Source of the DNA: Candidatus Methanomethylophilaceae archaeon
Lineage (GTDB): Archaea; Thermoplasmatota; Thermoplasmata; Methanomassiliicoccales; Methanomethylophilaceae
Assembly: GCA_017524805.1 (NCBI GenBank)
Contig: JAFXUX010000010.1
Location: 1 to 37,011, forward strand
Direction: 5' to 3'
Length of the DNA stretch: 37,011 nt
The notes under the pieces were generated by a model. The model was not told where the DNA came from, made no database searches, and saw only the letters and a program-made list of their open reading frames with translations. Position numbers and translations under genes: made by a program. This document shows, in pieces, positions 4,431 to 37,011 of the stretch (positions within the stretch are counted from its first letter, which is position 1; every line of letters begins with the position of its first letter).

Positions 4431-5855
4431 ATGGGGAAGAATCCGCCGAAGGCGATCAGGGTAATGGCTATCCCTCTGATCTTCGCCTTCCTTCTGTCGA
4501 GCGTCCAGATTTACATAGATTCGTTCTGGTGCGCCGGGCTCGGCCCTGACGCCAACTCCGCCATCACATTGGCTGGACCGGTATATTGGGTGCTCCTTGA
4601 CATAGGCGCCGGCCTTGGAGTGGGAGCCTCTACCGCGATATCCAGATCTCTGGGAGCTAAGGACTATGGCCGCTCCGACAGCCTCGCATCCCAGTCCCTG
4701 GTGCTTATAGCCTTGGTTTCGGTATGCCTCTCCATCCTGCTGTACGCATGCTCCCGCAGCATGATTTCGTTCATGAGCGGAGGAGAGAACGTAGACCTCA
4801 GCATGGAATACCTGATGCCTTTCCTCCTGTTCAGCCCGTTCCTGACTCTCAACGGAGTTATACTGGGGATGCTCAGGTCCGAAGGCGAGGCGAGGAAATC
4901 CTCCGGCCTCTCCATTGCTGCATCCCTGATCAACATCGTCCTCGATCCGATACTCATCTATGTCTTAGGCTTGGGGCTTCTGGGAGCGTCTCTCGCCACC
5001 GCGATTTCCTTCATCGCGACTACCGCGGTGGGTCTGTATTGGTATTCGTCAGGAAAGATGTTCATCAAACCGAAGCTCAGAGGATTCAGATTCATCAGAG
5101 AGCAGATATGGGACATCTGCAAAGTCGGCATCCCCCACTCCCTGGAACTGGCGCTGATTCCGCTAATGATGATGCCTCAGAATGCTTTGGTAGTGAAGGT
5201 CGGCGGCACGGACGGCATGATCACGTACAGCCTTCCGTATCGCTACATCACGCTGGCCATGGTCCCGGTACAAGCCATCGCGGCTTCCATGATCCCCGTG
5301 GTCTCCTACGCCATCGGAATGAGGAACAACGACAACGTCATGGCCGGGATCAGATATGCCCTCAAAGCTTCCATCATAATCTCGCTGGCGCTGACCGTGG
5401 TGCTCATCGTTCTGGCGGAACCGTTCTCGTACGCATTCACCTATTCCGATGATATGGCCAGATTCAGATCGGAGATAGCTATGGTCATCAGGATTTATGC
5501 CCTAGCCTTGCTTTCCATTTGCCTGACGCATCTTTGCTCTTCGATCCTTCAGGCACTGTGCTTCTCGCAGCTGGCCACCATCACCATGTTCATACGCGAG
5601 ATCCTGTTCATCCTGTTCTACTACGTATCCACATTCTTCAGCATGACCGCTATCTATTGGTCTTTGGATGCCGCCGAATATTTGGGCCTGGCGATGATGC
5701 TGCTCTGCGTCTGGTATGCCCTGAAGAAAAAATACCCCGATGATCGGCTGTTCGGAAAGCCGAGGCCGGCTGGCGCGCGACGAATGGGGATTGTGAGATG
5801 GTCCGGCATAAACTGTGTTATAATGCCATTGCGCTTCGATCTGAGAAGCTGTTAA
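4431..5855 (+). CDS. MATE family multidrug/toxic compound exporter
   Basis: From ATG 4431 this gives 474 residues with about 12 hydrophobic segments in two halves, the size and layout of MATE cation-driven exporters. Recognisable pieces are PPKAIRVMAIPLIFAFLL at the start of helix 1, AGLGPDANSAITLAGPVYW, GAGLGVGASTAISRSLGAKD at about residue 60, and the equivalent second-half helices. The family pattern ERIxLMG-PxKAI continues upstream of ATG 4431 in the same open frame (codons EETERIAL), so translation may begin at CTG 4404, eight bases after GGGG; neither choice has a strong ribosome-binding site. The last 30 residues after KKKYPDDR are not typical of the family. It exports cationic drugs, bile-type compounds or metabolites; the substrate cannot be assigned. 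Confidence 0.85.
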   Translation: MGKNPPKAIRVMAIPLIFAFLLSSVQIYIDSFWCAGLGPDANSAITLAGPVYWVLLDIGAGLGVGASTAISRSLGAKDYGRSDSLASQSLVLIALVSVCLSILLYACSRSMISFMSGGENVDLSMEYLMPFLLFSPFLTLNGVILGMLRSEGEARKSSGLSIAASLINIVLDPILIYVLGLGLLGASLATAISFIATTAVGLYWYSSGKMFIKPKLRGFRFIREQIWDICKVGIPHSLELALIPLMMMPQNALVVKVGGTDGMITYSLPYRYITLAMVPVQAIAASMIPVVSYAIGMRNNDNVMAGIRYALKASIIISLALTVVLIVLAEPFSYAFTYSDDMARFRSEIAMVIRIYALALLSICLTHLCSSILQALCFSQLATITMFIREILFILFYYVSTFFSMTAIYWSLDAAEYLGLAMMLLCVWYALKKKYPDDRLFGKPRPAGARRMGIVRWSGINCVIMPLRFDLRSC

Positions 5856-16324: not shown

Positions 16325-16903
16325 ATGCCGATGATGCCGTTCGGGAGGAAAAAAGTGGAATCATTCTCGGAGATCGCGCTTTCCATAACCTATATGGGCG
16401 GGAGAGAAGAGTTCAAAGCGATCTGCGAAGGGCCTTGCGCTAAGGTATCCTTCCAGACTGTATATCCGGGATCGAATGAACCTCCCGAACCTCTCTCTGA
16501 AACCACGTGCGGCACGGAAACTATAATCGGGTTGCTTAATGATTGCAATATTATGAAGTGGGACGGATTCCGCGGGAAGCAGCCCAGGCATCTGTTGGAC
16601 GGAGAGATGTTCGCTTTCGAAGCCACGGTCAACGATGGGCACAAAATCAGTGCGTCTGGTTCCAACAACTTCCCCAAGAGATTCTGGGAACTGAAGGACG
16701 GTCTCAGAAAGATTGTCGATGGAAACAGCCGATGGCCATATTACGGCCAAAGATGCCGACGTTATTATATGACGGAGCCAATCGCGAACCCATGTTCCCG
16801 CTTGAAAGAAGGGTCACCGTCATCTGCGGACACTACGGCGTCGGCAAGACGAACCTCTCGGTCAATCTGGCGTCGGACTATGCCCGCAAGGGAGAAGACG
16901 TGA
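16325..16903 (+). CDS. Conserved hypothetical protein, probably frameshifted at its 3' end
   Basis: An unknown protein with an apparently real globular core: FSEIALSITYMGGREEF, a CEGPCAKVSFQTVYPG segment with two Cys, ETIIGLLNDCNIMKWDGFRG, and SGSNNFPKRFWELKDGLRK. I do not recognise the family. ATG 16325 is chosen because a TATA box lies 23 bases upstream; an in-frame ATG 16265 exists before it. As written the frame runs to TGA 16903 and overlaps the ParA-like gene by 112 bases with an unlikely Arg/Ser-rich tail. After KIVD (about 16720) the next frame reads ETADGHITAKDADVII then TGA at 16770-16772, a far more natural ending 19 bases before the ParA start. One extra G in GATGGAAAC would explain this; it could be a sequencing error or a real mutation. 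Confidence 0.6.
   Translation: MPMMPFGRKKVESFSEIALSITYMGGREEFKAICEGPCAKVSFQTVYPGSNEPPEPLSETTCGTETIIGLLNDCNIMKWDGFRGKQPRHLLDGEMFAFEATVNDGHKISASGSNNFPKRFWELKDGLRKIVDGNSRWPYYGQRCRRYYMTEPIANPCSRLKEGSPSSADTTASARRTSRSIWRRTMPAREKT
16761..16770 (+). promoter_or_regulatory. TATA box for the ParA-like/oxidoreductase operon
   Basis: GTTATTATAT is centred about 26 bases before ATG 16792, placing the predicted transcript start at or next to that ATG (leaderless). It supports ATG 16792 over the in-frame ATG at 16753. Confidence 0.45.
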
Positions 16904-17454
16904 TCCTGATCGATCTGGACGTGGTGAACCCTTATTTCAGATCGGCGGATTACGAAAAGGCTCTCTCGGATTAGGGCATAAGAGTTGTGGGCCCCAACTT
17001 CGCCAACACGAATCTGGATACCCCTTCACTCCCCGGTTCGATACCCAGCCTCATCGAGGACGGCGGGAAAGTCATAATAGACGTCGGAGGGGACGACGCG
17101 GGCGCCACGGCGCTGGGAGTATACTCCTCGACGCTGGCCAGAACCGATCCGGATGTGCTCTACGTGATCAACAGATACAGGTCGATGACGACGCATCCGG
17201 AGGAGGCCGAGGAAATACTCGGGGAAATCGAGCGGGCTTCCCGTCTCAAAGCCACCGGAATCGTCAACAACTCCCATCTGAAGCATAAGACCGACGGTTC
17301 CACGATCCTGGAATCCATAGGATTCGCCGATGAGGTCTCCAAGCTCACGGGCCTGCCGATAAAGTTCACGGCGGTGCCCCGCAACATCAACCTCTTAAAT
17401 AAAATACCAAACATCTACCCAGTCGACGTCTGCGTCAAGGCGCCATGGGAATAA
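16792..17454 (+). CDS. MinD/ParA-like P-loop ATPase with in-frame TAG (predicted Pyl at residue 61)
   Basis: A 220-residue nucleotide-binding protein when the TAG at 16972-16974 is read through. Before it: TVICGHYGVGKTNLSVNLA (deviant Walker A) and IDLDVVNPYFRSADYEKAL. After it, same frame: GIRVVGPNFANTNLDTPSLP, KVIIDVGGDDAGATALG (Walker B region) and VLYVINRYRS. Both parts belong to one CobQ/MinD/ParA-type family, and the join is collinear without gap. A stop at codon 61 would leave no functional ATPase, and the downstream part has no good start of its own. Proteins of this family commonly precede 2-oxoacid oxidoreductase genes in anaerobes, as here, suggesting a role in cluster assembly or maturation (inference). 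It ends in TAA, 12 bases before the ferredoxin gene. Confidence 0.85.
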
Positions 17455-30088: not shown

Positions 30089-30889
30089 TCAGTTCAGCAG
30101 TTCGATTTCCAGCCTGTCGTAGAACCGGCCTTTGTTGAAAATGTTGTGCCTGTGATATTCAAGGTATTCCGGATTGGGTGCCAGCTTCTTTTTCGGGATG
30201 TCTATCTCCTTTCCGTCATACTTGCGGAAATAGCTGTCGTAAACGTCTCTGTCCATCGCATCCTCTATCGATGACGAAAGCCGGACACAATAGCTGCCCG
30301 GATCGACGGTGATGAGCCCCACATCGAATGCGACATCATGAAGAGCATTCAGACACAGCCCGTTGCGGACGTCCAGCCTCTCGATTCCGGTGCTTTCGCA
30401 CCAAGGCTTTATGTGGCTCGCTCTCAGCAGACGGGGCTCTTTCATCCCCGTTATGCAGCAGGAGCCGCCATAGGCATCAAGCACAAGATCCCTGAACTAA
30501 TCTTGGTTGACTCTGGTATTCACAAGGCGTTTCTTCGTCAGTCCGAACACCCATCTGTTCGCTTCGATATCGACCGATTCTACGGCTCCGGAGACGATTT
30601 CGTATATCGCGATAAACTGAGGATCCTTATCCAATTCCTCTAAGGCCTCATCCGGAGACATATCCCTGAAGATTCCTTTGAAATCGTCCCCCAAACCGTA
30701 ATGCCTGAGAATCGCCCAGGACTGGTATCCTTTGCTTTTGCCGCTGTCAAGGCCCAATATCTCCTCATCCAATCTGCGGCTGGACAGCCCGTCAAAGAGA
30801 TATCTGATGACGATGCCCTCCCTCAGTTCCCTTCTATAATGTTTGAATTCCCTATCGCGTGAGGATATCGCCAGATCAGGAAGCTGCAT
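30089..30889 (-). CDS. HNH endonuclease (HNH_2 type) with in-frame TAG (predicted Pyl at residue 131)
   Basis: 266 residues if TAG 30499-30497 is decoded. Residues 1 to about 120 are an unrecognised helical domain (EFKHYRRELREGIVIRYLF, then ILGLDSGKSKGYQSWAIL, the kind of segment seen before HNH domains in restriction-like proteins) ending RVNQD. The TAG follows, then FRDLVLDAYGGSCCITGM, LLRASHIKPWCES and NGLCLNALHDVAFDVGLI, the HNH_2 motif with its catalytic histidines. In HNH_2 proteins Q-x-FFR-x2-VL runs straight into the domain, so the join is normal. Terminating at the TAG would remove the nuclease. A TATA box 26 bases before ATG 30889 gives a leaderless start. It probably cuts DNA; a defence role is possible but no partner methylase or defence gene is adjacent. 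Confidence 0.83.
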
Positions 30890-32166: not shown

Positions 32167-32751
32167 CTAAAACACGTCCGAGTGAACTCGAACCGTGAGC
32201 GCAGAATTGGGACAGGCCAGATCGAAGGCGAGAATGGCGGGAAGCGGCACCCTTCCGGAACCCGGACGGTGCTCCTCCTCCCCTTGAGGGAGGCTATCAG
32301 AAAGGGGGTTAAAAAGTTTGGCGGGGCGGGTCAGACGAGGGCCGGCCCCGACGGCCGCGCCCATACTGCGCGGGTTGGCGCGGAAGTAGCGGCGGAGGGT
32401 GGTGTCTATCGACGAGTGGCGCATCATCCTGCGGATGGTGTCGAGGTCCACCCCGGCGTCGCTCATGGTCGTCACTAAGAGGCGCCGAAGGCAGTGGGGG
32501 CTGAATGGCACCCCCGACCGCTCCGCCAGCCTCTCGAGAACAGTCTGGAGGGCCCTGGCCGACATGGGCCTACCGATGCTGCGCTTCCCGGTGCTGATTA
32601 GGAAGTGGCCGCTGGACCTGTCCCCGTACCTGCTCAGTATCCCCTCGTGGTACTCGAGGGCCTGCATGGAGCCGAGGTCGTACTCCCTGATGCCCTTCGG
32701 TCCCTCGTCTGCCAATAAAGGGTCCACGGGGTATGGCTGGGCAGAGACCAT
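32167..32751 (-). pseudogene. Truncated tyrosine recombinase (integrase) remnant
   Basis: Only the C-terminal catalytic part is recognisable: RPMSARALQTVLERLAERSG, PHCLRRLLVTTMSDAG (the H-x-x-R box), and LDTIRRMMRHSSIDTTLRRYF (second His and the nucleophile Tyr). The N-terminal core-binding domain and the first catalytic Arg are missing; upstream the frame reaches a TGA about 70 bases before the first Met, inside the gap to the BspA gene. After the Tyr motif the frame continues as Arg/Pro-rich sequence without family resemblance. It is the only frame here ending in TAG (32169-32167), and TAA follows two codons later. It is probably the remains of an integrated element; its other parts are not visible. 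Confidence 0.75.
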
Positions 32752-32823: not shown

Positions 32824-35097
32824 TCAGGCCGCGGAGCGGAACAGCCGGCCGTCGCCGTCTCCCGTGTACAGGTGGCCGGCGAAGGCCTTGGCGGTCCTCG
32901 GAAGCTCGTTCCCGCTCTCGTCGAAGAAGGCGAGCCCGTGGAACGCGCCGGGGCCGATCGACACGACCGAGCTCCCTATGGCCACCGAGGAAATGGAGCC
33001 GCAACCGTAGAACGCGCGGTCCCTGATGGTCTCCACCGAATCGGGGATGACAGCTTCCGCGAGCGACACGCAGAACAGGAACGCGCACTTGCCTATGGAC
33101 ACCGCGGAATCGGGGATTACCACGGATGCCAGGGAATCGCAACCGTAGAACGCGTATCCCCCGACTGACCTCAAAGAACCGCCGAAGTCGATGCTTTCCA
33201 GCGCCGAGCAGCGGGCGAACGCCTTCATGCCTATCCCGGAGACGCTTCCGAGATCCGCCGAGACCAGGGATCCGCATCCGCAGAAGGCCTTGGGGCCGAT
33301 GTCGGAGACGGGATATTCCTTCCCGCCGTATGCTACCGAGGCCGGGACAGACAGGTGCGCCATCGGCTCGGAGTAGCCAATCAAGGTGGCATCCTCGTCG
33401 CCGGACCAGTCCACCTTGAAGACCAAGCCGCCGGAGACGAACTCGAAGCCGTCCGCCACGCGCTGGAGCACGCAGCAGCGCCCCTCGTATGCGTGCCCGC
33501 CCAGGCTGCCGGCCGAGCAGTCCAGGGCGTTCCCTCTCTCGTCGAGGAACCTGATCCCGTAGAACGCGTTCTCCCCGATGGATTCCACGGAGCCCGGTAT
33601 ATCTACGCTGGACAGCGCAGTGCAGCCGCTGAACGCGCTCTTCCCTATGGACACTGCCGAATCCGGGATGGTGACGGAGGCGAGGGAACCGCACCCGAAG
33701 AAAGCGTACGCACCTATCTCCCCGAGGGAACCGCCGAATCCGACGCTTTCCAGCGACCCGCAGCGGGCGAAGGCCTTCATCCCTATATCAGATACGCCGC
33801 CCAGATCGGCGGATATCAGCCCTGAGAGACCATAGAATGCCTTGGGGCCTATGCCGGAGACAGCGTAACTCTTGCCCCCGTAGGACACCTCCGCCGGGAC
33901 CTCCAGGCGCGCCATAGGCTCTGTATAACCGGCCAGGACGGCATCCGCACCGCCGGAGGGATCCAGCATGAACACCAGTCCGTCCGAGACGAATTTGTCC
34001 GTCACACGTTTCAGCACGCCCCCATGCCCTTCGTAATAGAATCCGCTGAGCTTATCCGGAGTATTGGAGAGGACGCTCCCGTTCTCGTCCAGGAACCTGA
34101 CCCCGTGGAACGCGTTTTCCCTGATCGTGTTGACGGAGCCAGGGATGTTTATTGATGCTAGGGAGCGGCAGTAGGCGAACGCATAATTCCCGATATACGT
34201 GACCGAATCGGGTATGGAGACGGAGGTGAGAGAGGTGCAGTACTCGAACGCATACATCCCGATGGTCGTGACCGAATCCGGGATGGTGACGGAGGTGAGG
34301 GAGGAGCAGCCGTAGAACACACCCCCGATGGTCGTGACCGAATTCGAGATGTCTATGGAAGCCAGGGAGCGGCAGTAGGAGAACGCGTAAGCCTTGATTT
34401 CCGTGACCGAATCCGGGATGGTGACGGAGGTGAGGGAGGTGCAGTACTCGAACGCAAATTCCCCGATATACGTGACCGAATCGGGTATGGTGATAGATGA
34501 CAGGGAGGAGCAATTGGCGAACGCGTATCTCCATATCTCAGTAACCGAATCCGGGATGTCCACGGAGACGAGGGAGGAGCAGCCGGAGAACAAACCATTG
34601 ATGGCCGTGACCGAGTCCGGGATGGTCACGCTGGTTAGCGCCTTGCAACCGCTGAACGCTCCTGACCCGATGTCCGTGACCGAGTCCGGGATGTCCACGG
34701 AGGTCAGAGAGTTGCAGTTCCAGAACGCCCTCGCCCCAATGGTCTTGACCGAGTCCGGGATTGTGACGGAGGCCAGGGATGTGCAGCCGGAGAACGCATT
34801 ATTCCCGATGGACGTGACCGGGCCTTCGAAGCGGACAGACATTATCCCAAGGCCGCCCCATGGCCCGTAAGTACCATTATGATTTTTATAGTCATACATC
34901 CCGCCGCTGCCGGAGATAGTCAGGTTGCCGGCATCGTCGAGCTCCCACGTCAGATTGTCCCCGCATTTGCCGGATCCGGCCCCGTCCGAGCCGTCCGGCA
35001 ATGCGGCAATGAGGAACGCCGCCGCGGCCAGGATCACAGCGGCGGCAGCGACCATGCGCCAGGCTCTCATTCCTTTGGATTCGCAGAAGTGTCCCAT
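32824..35097 (-). CDS. BspA-like leucine-rich-repeat surface protein
   Basis: 757 residues from ATG 35097, which is 24 bases after TATA TTATAAATA. The N-terminus (MRAWRMVAAAAVILAAAAF) is a signal peptide, followed by NLTWELDDAGNLTISGSGGM, the usual N-terminal cap of BspA proteins. Then come at least 20 LRR_5 repeats of 23 residues, of type SLTSVTIPDSVTxIGxYAF. Two blocks interrupt them at about 33840-34115 and 33290-33570, each with FLDExGNxL, G-x-YEGxxxVLxR, a GGLVF strand and GY-x-EPMA-x-L-x-VP; these look like a separate beta module. No LPxTG, PGF or other C-terminal anchor is visible. BspA proteins mediate adhesion to host cells or other microbes, so a host-associated life is likely. Confidence 0.9.
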   Translation of the reverse strand: MGHFCESKGMRAWRMVAAAAVILAAAAFLIAALPDGSDGAGSGKCGDNLTWELDDAGNLTISGSGGMYDYKNHNGTYGPWGGLGIMSVRFEGPVTSIGNNAFSGCTSLASVTIPDSVKTIGARAFWNCNSLTSVDIPDSVTDIGSGAFSGCKALTSVTIPDSVTAINGLFSGCSSLVSVDIPDSVTEIWRYAFANCSSLSSITIPDSVTYIGEFAFEYCTSLTSVTIPDSVTEIKAYAFSYCRSLASIDISNSVTTIGGVFYGCSSLTSVTIPDSVTTIGMYAFEYCTSLTSVSIPDSVTYIGNYAFAYCRSLASINIPGSVNTIRENAFHGVRFLDENGSVLSNTPDKLSGFYYEGHGGVLKRVTDKFVSDGLVFMLDPSGGADAVLAGYTEPMARLEVPAEVSYGGKSYAVSGIGPKAFYGLSGLISADLGGVSDIGMKAFARCGSLESVGFGGSLGEIGAYAFFGCGSLASVTIPDSAVSIGKSAFSGCTALSSVDIPGSVESIGENAFYGIRFLDERGNALDCSAGSLGGHAYEGRCCVLQRVADGFEFVSGGLVFKVDWSGDEDATLIGYSEPMAHLSVPASVAYGGKEYPVSDIGPKAFCGCGSLVSADLGSVSGIGMKAFARCSALESIDFGGSLRSVGGYAFYGCDSLASVVIPDSAVSIGKCAFLFCVSLAEAVIPDSVETIRDRAFYGCGSISSVAIGSSVVSIGPGAFHGLAFFDESGNELPRTAKAFAGHLYTGDGDGRLFRSAA

Positions 35098-35114
35098 GGG
35101 ATTCGCATCGTTCT

Positions 35115-35127
35115 GTGTATTTATAAC
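35115..35127 (-). promoter_or_regulatory. TATA box of the first BspA-like gene
   Basis: The minus-strand sequence GGTTATAAATACA is centred 24 bases before ATG 35097, fixing the start at a leaderless ATG 27 bases upstream of the in-frame Met of the signal peptide core (35070). Confidence 0.6.
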
Positions 35128-35230
35128 CGCTCTGCCGAAGGATTGCTGCCGATCGCGGAGCTGAGCGCGCTCACCATTGCGCGGGAAGGCGGGAGCCCCG
35201 GCGGGCGGGGCGGAACAAAAGGAAAGGTGC

Positions 35231-35252
35231 CCGGGGCCCCGGAAGGCCCCGG
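35231..35252 (-). terminator. 8-bp GC hairpin ending the second BspA-like gene
   Basis: CCGGGGCC pairs with GGCCCCGG around a six-base loop, starting seven bases past the TGA at 35259 on the minus strand; pyrimidine-rich sequence (CACCTTTCCTTTTG) follows on that strand. It separates the two BspA-like genes. Confidence 0.55.
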
Positions 35253-35258
35253 CTGTTT

Positions 35259-37011
35259 TCAGGATGCGAGATGCAGCTTCGCGTCCGATCCGGAGAAGGC
35301 GTGCCCGGAAAGAGTTTCCGGGACCGGCTGGAGCCTGGACCCCCCGTCGTAGAACGCCAGGCCGAAGAAGGCGTAGGGCCCGACGGATCCGAGATCCCCG
35401 CCGAACGCGACCTCCTCCAGAGAGACGCAGTTCGCGAAGGCTTTCATGCCTACCGACCTCGCGTTGGTCAGGTCGGCCGATTTCAAGGTGGAGCATCCGT
35501 AGAACGCCTTGTCCGCTACAGCAGTGACCTTCAGGGCCCATCCCTTGTACGAAACTTCGCCGGGCAGAGAAGCCACAGCGCCGGAGAAGCCGACGGCGGT
35601 TACTTCGCGGGAGCCCGCGGAGGACACCGAATAATCGATCCCTCCGGCGGAGAACCGCTCGCCGTCCTCGATGTCCCCGGCCATGCGCAGGACCTTCCCG
35701 GAGCCGAAGTACGCATGCCCGCGGAGCTTCAGCGTCTGGTCCATGGCCTTGCCGTCCAGGTCCAGGAACGTCACGCCGTAGAAGGCGTTCGGGCCTATGT
35801 ACACGAGGGACTTGGGCAGAGACACCATCTCCAGGGCCTTGCACCCGCTGAAGGCACTCCTACCAATCTTCCCGGCCCCGTCCTCCACCGTGACCTCCTT
35901 CAGGCCGGCGCAGCAGAAGAACGCGTATCCGCCGACCCTCTTGAGGGTCCCGGGTATGGAGTTGCTTGCGAGGGACTCGCAGTAGGAGAAAGATTTCAGC
36001 CCCACCGATTCCGCGGAGCCGAGATCTAAAGACTCCAGCGAGGCGCATCTGAAGAACGCGTAGTCTCCGACGGCCCTGACCGTGTCCGGCAGGGAGGCCG
36101 ACCTCAGCCCTGAGCACCCGTAGAACGCCCTGTCCCCTACCGAGACGACCGCATACTCGAAGCCGAAATGCGTCACGGACCCGGGCACCGAGACGGCGGA
36201 CGGGGAGCCTGCGTATCCCGCCAGGGAGACGGACGCTGGGCTCTGGGAGACCACCTCGTAGACGAGCCCGCCGGAGGTGAACCTACCCCCGACGTCCAAC
36301 GGCTTCGGGTCGGCCATCCTTAGTACCCCGTCGCCGGATCCCTCGAAGAGGTGGCCGGATATGGCCTCGGGCGTTTGGTTGAGCGCCTTCCCGTCGGTGC
36401 CGAGGAAGGTCAGGCGGAAGAAAGCCCAGTCCCCGATGGTGGTGACCGAACCGGGAATGAAAATCAATGCGAGGGAGGTGCAGCCGAAGAACGCGCTGTC
36501 GCTGATGGCGGTGACCGAACCGGGTATGTCCACGGAGGCGAGGGAGGTGCAGTCGCAAAACGCGCTGTCGCTGATGGCGGTGACCGAGGCCGGGAGGGCT
36601 ATTGAGTCGAGGGAGGTGCATTCGCGGAACGCCCAGTTGCCGATGCTGGTGACCGAATCGGGGATGTCCACGGAGGCGAGGGAGGTGCAGCCGTAGAACG
36701 CTCTGCTGCCGATGCTGGTGACCGAATCGGGGATGTCCACGGAGGCGAGGGAGGAGCATCCGCGGAACACCCAGTCATCGATGACGGTGACCGAGGCCGG
36801 GATGGCAATGGAAGACAGGGCCTCGCAGTATGTAAAGGCCGATTTGCCGATGCTGGTGACCGAATCGGGGATATTCACGGAGGCGAGGGAGGTGCAGCCG
36901 TGGAACGCGCTGTGACCGATGCTGGTGACCGAATCGGGGATATTCACGGAGGCGAGGGAGGTGCAGCCGTAGAACACCCCCTCGCAGATGGTGGTGACCG
37001 AACCGGGTATG
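35259..37011 (-). CDS. BspA-like leucine-rich-repeat surface protein (5' partial)
   Basis: The C-terminal 583 residues of a second BspA-like protein; the frame is open to the window edge, so the start, signal peptide and further repeats lie beyond. It begins with at least eight LRR_5 repeats of 23 residues (ASVDIPDSVTSIGxWAF type), then the same beta modules as its neighbour at about 36110-36430 and 35490-35790 (FLDLDGKAMDQT, GHAYFGSGKVLRMA, SAGGIDYSVSS), ending in a half-module (FYDGGSRLQPVPETLSGHAF) without an anchor. The neighbouring gene ends in the same kind of half-module, so this may be the family's normal C-terminus. The two genes are parallel duplicates in function but differ in sequence. 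Confidence 0.88.
   Translation of the reverse strand, partial: IPGSVTTICEGVFYGCTSLASVNIPDSVTSIGHSAFHGCTSLASVNIPDSVTSIGKSAFTYCEALSSIAIPASVTVIDDWVFRGCSSLASVDIPDSVTSIGSRAFYGCTSLASVDIPDSVTSIGNWAFRECTSLDSIALPASVTAISDSAFCDCTSLASVDIPGSVTAISDSAFFGCTSLALIFIPGSVTTIGDWAFFRLTFLGTDGKALNQTPEAISGHLFEGSGDGVLRMADPKPLDVGGRFTSGGLVYEVVSQSPASVSLAGYAGSPSAVSVPGSVTHFGFEYAVVSVGDRAFYGCSGLRSASLPDTVRAVGDYAFFRCASLESLDLGSAESVGLKSFSYCESLASNSIPGTLKRVGGYAFFCCAGLKEVTVEDGAGKIGRSAFSGCKALEMVSLPKSLVYIGPNAFYGVTFLDLDGKAMDQTLKLRGHAYFGSGKVLRMAGDIEDGERFSAGGIDYSVSSAGSREVTAVGFSGAVASLPGEVSYKGWALKVTAVADKAFYGCSTLKSADLTNARSVGMKAFANCVSLEEVAFGGDLGSVGPYAFFGLAFYDGGSRLQPVPETLSGHAFSGSDAKLHLAS
36420..37011 (-). repeat. Near-identical 69-bp coding repeats inside the BspA-like gene
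   Basis: The phrase GATGCTGGTGACCGAATCGG starts at 36642, 36711, 36849 and 36918, exact multiples of 69 bases, and the following 30 bases are nearly identical too. Each unit encodes one 23-residue LRR. DNA-level identity, not just protein-level similarity, indicates recent unit duplication or ongoing homogenisation by recombination. Confidence 0.85.

Follow-up and report, generated by a model that had tools for sequence, protein, structure and literature searches.

The window, the whole stretch of 37,011 nucleotides analysed here from a Candidatus Methanomethylophilaceae archaeon, carries on its minus strand an HNH_2 endonuclease gene with a single in-frame TAG at codon 131. The host very probably reads this codon as pyrrolysine (Pyl), as it very probably does the TAG in twelve or more further genes. 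The explanation that we consider highly probable is neutral drift of the lysine-to-pyrrolysine type, with read-through by tRNA-Pyl giving a full-length, probably restriction-type nuclease. We infer Pyl incorporation, together with the activity and the substrate of the enzyme, from sequence and from comparison with relatives.

The HNH_2 gene and its product

On translation, the frame opens with ATG at 30889 and closes with TGA at 30091-30089, with 130 codons before the TAG (30499-30497) and 135 after it, and the TAG is the sole in-frame stop ahead of that TGA (Table 1). Under the standard table the gene is split into two open reading frames, one of 130 aa and the other of 131 aa starting at a GTG. 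An earlier note on this DNA had described a TAG with an open frame on both sides and HNH_2 downstream, which was confirmed by the translation, by the PF13391 profile and by a relative in another genome of the same genus (G084). This single close full-length relative is 77% identical, aligns without gaps across all 266 codons and is free of stops, so the frame is beyond chance.

The PF13391 (HNH_2) profile matches only 3' of the TAG, at residues 144-196, and scores 46-48 bits (cut-off 21), and PADLOC restriction-HNH models match residues 108-256. A Pfam profile search with the N-terminal part of the protein gave no matches. This part is common to two related loci (L006 and L007), and a copy that lacks the HNH domain, free-standing or truncated, forms the last part of a longer ATPase-like frame in a further genome (L019:1501-1830, G038).

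Table 1. Coordinates of the features discussed (window positions unless a locus is named)
Feature	Position	Strand	Remarks and basis
HNH_2 endonuclease gene	30089..30889	-	266 codons plus TGA stop, one in-frame TAG; translation, PF13391, gapless relative
In-frame TAG (codon 131), a probable pyrrolysine codon	30497..30499	-	Sequence, sense codons in 14 homologues, complete pyl set
Codons 1-130: N-terminal part (~1-112) and start of HNH domain	30500..30889	-	N-terminal part without Pfam family
Codons 132-266 plus stop: body of HNH domain with H159, N176, D185, D189	30089..30496	-	PF13391, VcaM4I alignment
GTG, codon 136, closest potential restart 3' of TAG	30482..30484	-	ORF list, conserved columns
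Mrp/ParA-like ATPase gene	16792-17454	+	TAG 16972-16974, codon 61
TAG-containing FeoB, riboflavin synthase, citrate synthase, CobT-like	L047:15960-17861, L068:6619-7086, L068:13319-14668, L074:9698-10807		One in-frame TAG each

Two other features were noted, both on the minus strand. A phage-type integrase is represented by its C-terminal part (32167-32751), which ends in TAG, lies ~1.3 kb from the HNH_2 gene and may be the remnant of a mobile element. Near the window end, two large BspA-type leucine-rich repeat frames (LRR_5, 32824-36977) overlap in different frames and are possibly one or two surface proteins.

The product is probably a modification-dependent (McrA-like) HNH restriction endonuclease or a related defence nuclease. 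Its place among the HNH_2 (PF13391) endonucleases is given by a profile score above the cut-off and by the catalytic H, N and D residues, with H224, N241, D250 and D254 of the VcaM4I active site aligning with H159, N176, D185 and D189. By sequence and fold, the closest solved structures in the PDB are VcaM4I (EVE-HNH, PDB 6yex; PMC7897488) and TagI (SRA-HNH, PDB 6ghs), both modification-dependent enzymes with a C-terminal HNH domain, as here. Profile searches of the N-terminus for an EVE, SRA or sulfur-binding (SBD) domain gave no match. In the structure model of the protein the N-terminal half is poor, mostly below 50 pLDDT; fold comparison of this part is therefore uninformative, and it may contain an unrecognised sensor. 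The model for phosphorothioate-dependent restriction endonucleases (NF045808) reached 56 bits against a cut-off of 180, and matched the HNH part only.

The earlier note had placed the TAG between the N-terminal and nuclease domains. By alignment it lies not at a domain boundary but within the first HNH-domain helix: residue 131 corresponds to I197 of VcaM4I, an ordinary Ile where the present protein has TAG, and the HNH domain construct of VcaM4I spans 179-309. In that alignment the helix around the TAG reads RxNQxxFRxxVLxAY, and the predicted structure puts residue 131 in the first turn of helix 129-139, with local confidence rising to ~90. The motif Q-x-FFR cited in the note is likewise not what homologues have; they show Q-x-x-F-R, with the TAG as the second x. 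Neither R126 nor R133 varies among the 15 sequences compared, and Q129, F132, V136, L137 and Y140 are conserved. The most variable columns of the helix, 131, 134, 135 and 138, share one face by helix geometry, and because of this clustering the face that includes residue 131 is likely to be exposed to solvent.

Homologues and selection around the TAG

An HNH homologue was found in 16 of 147 genomes of the order, this genome counted. Alignment of the homologues, which had been suggested as a check, favoured the earlier note and revealed a sense codon in each of the 14 that cover the TAG column, encoding I, K, F, L, D, M, S or V; the close relative in G084 has AAA (Lys). Among the homologues, TAG occurs at this place in the present genome alone. 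With eight different residues among 14 homologues, the column lacks the conservation expected of a functional Pyl such as those of mtmB, mtbB and mttB.

The gene is accessory, being absent from most genomes of the genus. In G084 it lies elsewhere, flanked by segments that match window positions 5773 and 5842, and conserved synteny was ruled out on this ground. The G084 copy adjoins a Sel1-repeat gene (L105:6586-8640) in a segment missing from the corresponding place in the window; this gene and a Sel1-repeat gene in another genome (L037:4902-6821, G000) each carry an in-frame TAG. A search for related loci over genome contigs found no relatives, and a search with the DNA pattern around the TAG found neither a second copy nor another genome of this species. 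Phage searches returned matches to the HNH domain only, at 30-36% identity over about half of the protein. Internal stops in two other homologous loci (TAA in L009, TGA in L020) were considered as signs of decay and rejected, since each falls where its match ends.

Comparison with G084 for the part 3' of the TAG gave a dN of 0.14, a dS of ~2.1 and a dN/dS of ~0.07; as this dS is close to saturation, the test is unable to date the TAG and is blind to a very recent one. In a three-way comparison of the same part, 3 amino-acid changes were assigned to the window branch and 5 to that of the relative, which gives no indication of relaxed constraint.

Sense-like use of TAG in the host

The pyrrolysine machinery is located on contig C25 of the host genome, where tRNA-Pyl (anticodon CTA) precedes pylS, followed by pylB, pylC and pylD. 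In profile searches PylS, PylB, PylC and PylD each score above the curated cut-off, and pylS does so in all seven genomes tested, namely this one and six with HNH homologues. The genome also has two mtmB genes, mtbB and mttB, all carrying TAG. Together, the pyl operon and the set of methyltransferases point to a member of the Methanomassiliicoccales.

The use of stop codons was surveyed in a sample of 1.0 Mb of the 1.95 Mb genome with our own rough gene caller and a simple codon model, so the counts are approximate. The 913 gene-call ends comprised 748 TGA, 117 TAA and 48 TAG. Coding continued in frame for at least 50 codons beyond 15 of the 48 TAG, compared with 28 of 748 TGA and 3 of 117 TAA (15/48 vs 31/865 for TAA and TGA together; Fisher P 1.1e-9). 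When the three methyltransferases and the HNH_2 gene were left out, the Fisher P was 1.4e-6. Within the sample, genes avoid TAG as their stop, and the codon serves largely as sense. The other 33 of the 48 TAG-ended calls had no clear coding continuation by the test used, and TAG may therefore still terminate some genes.

Similar interruptions are present in genes of known families. In FeoB, RibC (riboflavin synthase), citrate synthase and the CobT-like TIGR00303 protein, one family model spans the TAG in each case. Ten TGA controls gave no family match crossing the stop (0/10), and in 8 of the 10 different families lay on either side of it, as expected for adjacent genes. At least 11 comparable TAG interruptions were counted outside the methyltransferases, with no matching excess for TAA or TGA.

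Some of these codons are shared between species. Three other species of the genus, with 82-84% identity, keep the TAG of the Mrp/ParA-like ATPase gene at the identical codon, and a TAG within this gene is also present in two further genomes. The riboflavin synthase gene ribC has an in-frame TAG both here and in G084, with no other internal stop among the strong matches listed from 133 genomes. Such sharing suggests that in-frame TAGs persist and are decoded in the lineage. Decoding of TAG as pyrrolysine, as the earlier note predicted, is well supported by the pyl set, by the sense-like use of TAG across the genome and by the conserved TAGs elsewhere.

Origin and meaning of codon 131

In the preferred explanation, codon 131 would have drifted to TAG from a sense codon, probably one for Lys, since AAG to TAG is a single step. 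tRNA-Pyl would decode the TAG, and the ribosome would insert pyrrolysine, itself a lysine derivative, at residue 131 on the variable face of the first HNH-domain helix. The full 266-residue enzyme would be produced, while part of the product may end at residue 130 and be an inactive by-product. The TAG would be tolerated without being selected as a switch; at least a dozen other genes carry TAG likewise, which argues that the codon is a harmless substitution. Against this stand the confinement of the TAG to one genome among the homologues, the TAG-ended calls that lack a clear continuation and the near-saturated dS, and a very recent nonsense mutation would equally leave the frame 3' of it intact.

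Such a mutation is the basis of an unlikely alternative, in which an accessory nuclease was recently cut short, its 3' part has not yet decayed, and read-through by tRNA-Pyl is incidental and unimportant. The changed location in the closest relative, the absence of the gene from most genomes of the genus, the lack of any homologue sharing the TAG and the nearby integrase fragment are all compatible with a pseudogene. However, the 266-codon frame is interrupted only once, and by the sole stop codon that the host is able to decode, the part 3' of it is under purifying selection without excess changes, and TAG is broadly sense-like in the genome.

The earlier note had tied nuclease output to methylamine metabolism, with the nuclease made only when Pyl-tRNA is plentiful. 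All catalytic residues lie beyond the TAG, and termination there would leave a nuclease-dead fragment, as such a switch would have it. It would, however, need a TAG that is special to the HNH_2 gene, and this TAG is not: the codon is not conserved among the HNH homologues, its column is variable and tolerant, and unrelated housekeeping genes contain TAG too. Low usage of TAG as a stop was moreover taken as a sign of constitutive Pyl decoding in related work (PMC4153887). The claim is therefore unsupported, and we regard the switch as very unlikely. Slightly less likely still is an elaboration in which read-through follows the supply of Pyl-tRNA, with restriction low when methylamines are scarce and high when they are plentiful, and in which the N-terminal fragment left by termination inhibits by competing for DNA binding. 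Should there be a dependence on Pyl supply, it would be a side effect shared with other genes and not a feature of this one.

We give very little credence to two separate proteins, with the N-terminal one ending at the TAG and a free nuclease restarting at GTG codon 136. The GTG lies five codons 3' of the TAG, the N-terminal domain has a free-standing copy in G038, and the isolated HNH domain of VcaM4I is an active, toxic nuclease (PMC7897488). Yet a restart at this GTG would lose the invariant R126 and R133 as well as Q129, the active VcaM4I fragment starts ~23 residues earlier, and the GTG falls in a column conserved as hydrophobic, with V in 10 of 15 sequences. A one-base sequencing or assembly error in this draft, the one genome of its species covered here, could turn AAG or CAG into TAG, but it is hardly credible: 11 or more comparable TAGs interrupt genes other than the methyltransferases, some of them recur at the same position in other species, and TAA and TGA are not in similar excess.

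The earlier note knew of no description of such a regulatory layout. Amber codons in the nuclease genes cas1 and cas3 of related genomes had already been published. In 'Ca. M. alvus', 16 further Pyl proteins were predicted, cas1 among them, with 1.6% TAG stops, and in-frame ambers were proposed to be stable mutations (PMC4153887). In ISO4-H5, cas3 is one of 46 amber-containing genes (PMC5011839). Both organisms belong to the same order and have the same machinery, and cas1 and cas3 also have TAG-free homologues. DNA-cutting enzymes with a Pyl codon are thus already known from this order, and the HNH_2 gene appears to add one; the table of Pyl proteins of 'Ca. M. alvus' (PMC4153887) contains no HNH_2 endonuclease. 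The neutral explanation has likewise been proposed before for Pyl proteins of the Methanomassiliicoccales ('Ca. M. alvus' and ISO4-H5). Compared with those sets, some of the TAGs described here are conserved between species. Heinemann et al. in 2009 reportedly described a tRNA-His guanylyltransferase with Pyl, by its title a case of neutral evolution in a non-methyltransferase protein; both the protein and the lineage differ from those of the HNH_2 gene. A 2025 paper is also said to describe archaea in which all TAG codons stand for pyrrolysine.

The HNH_2 gene would be one more nuclease that a Pyl-decoding methanogen completes only by reading an amber codon. Standard annotation would split it and miss the join, and organisms without Pyl would truncate such genes. 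The broader conclusion carries more weight than this one gene: in the lineage TAG occurs within core genes, and some of these TAGs are shared between species, so that annotation of such genomes should allow for TAG as a sense codon.
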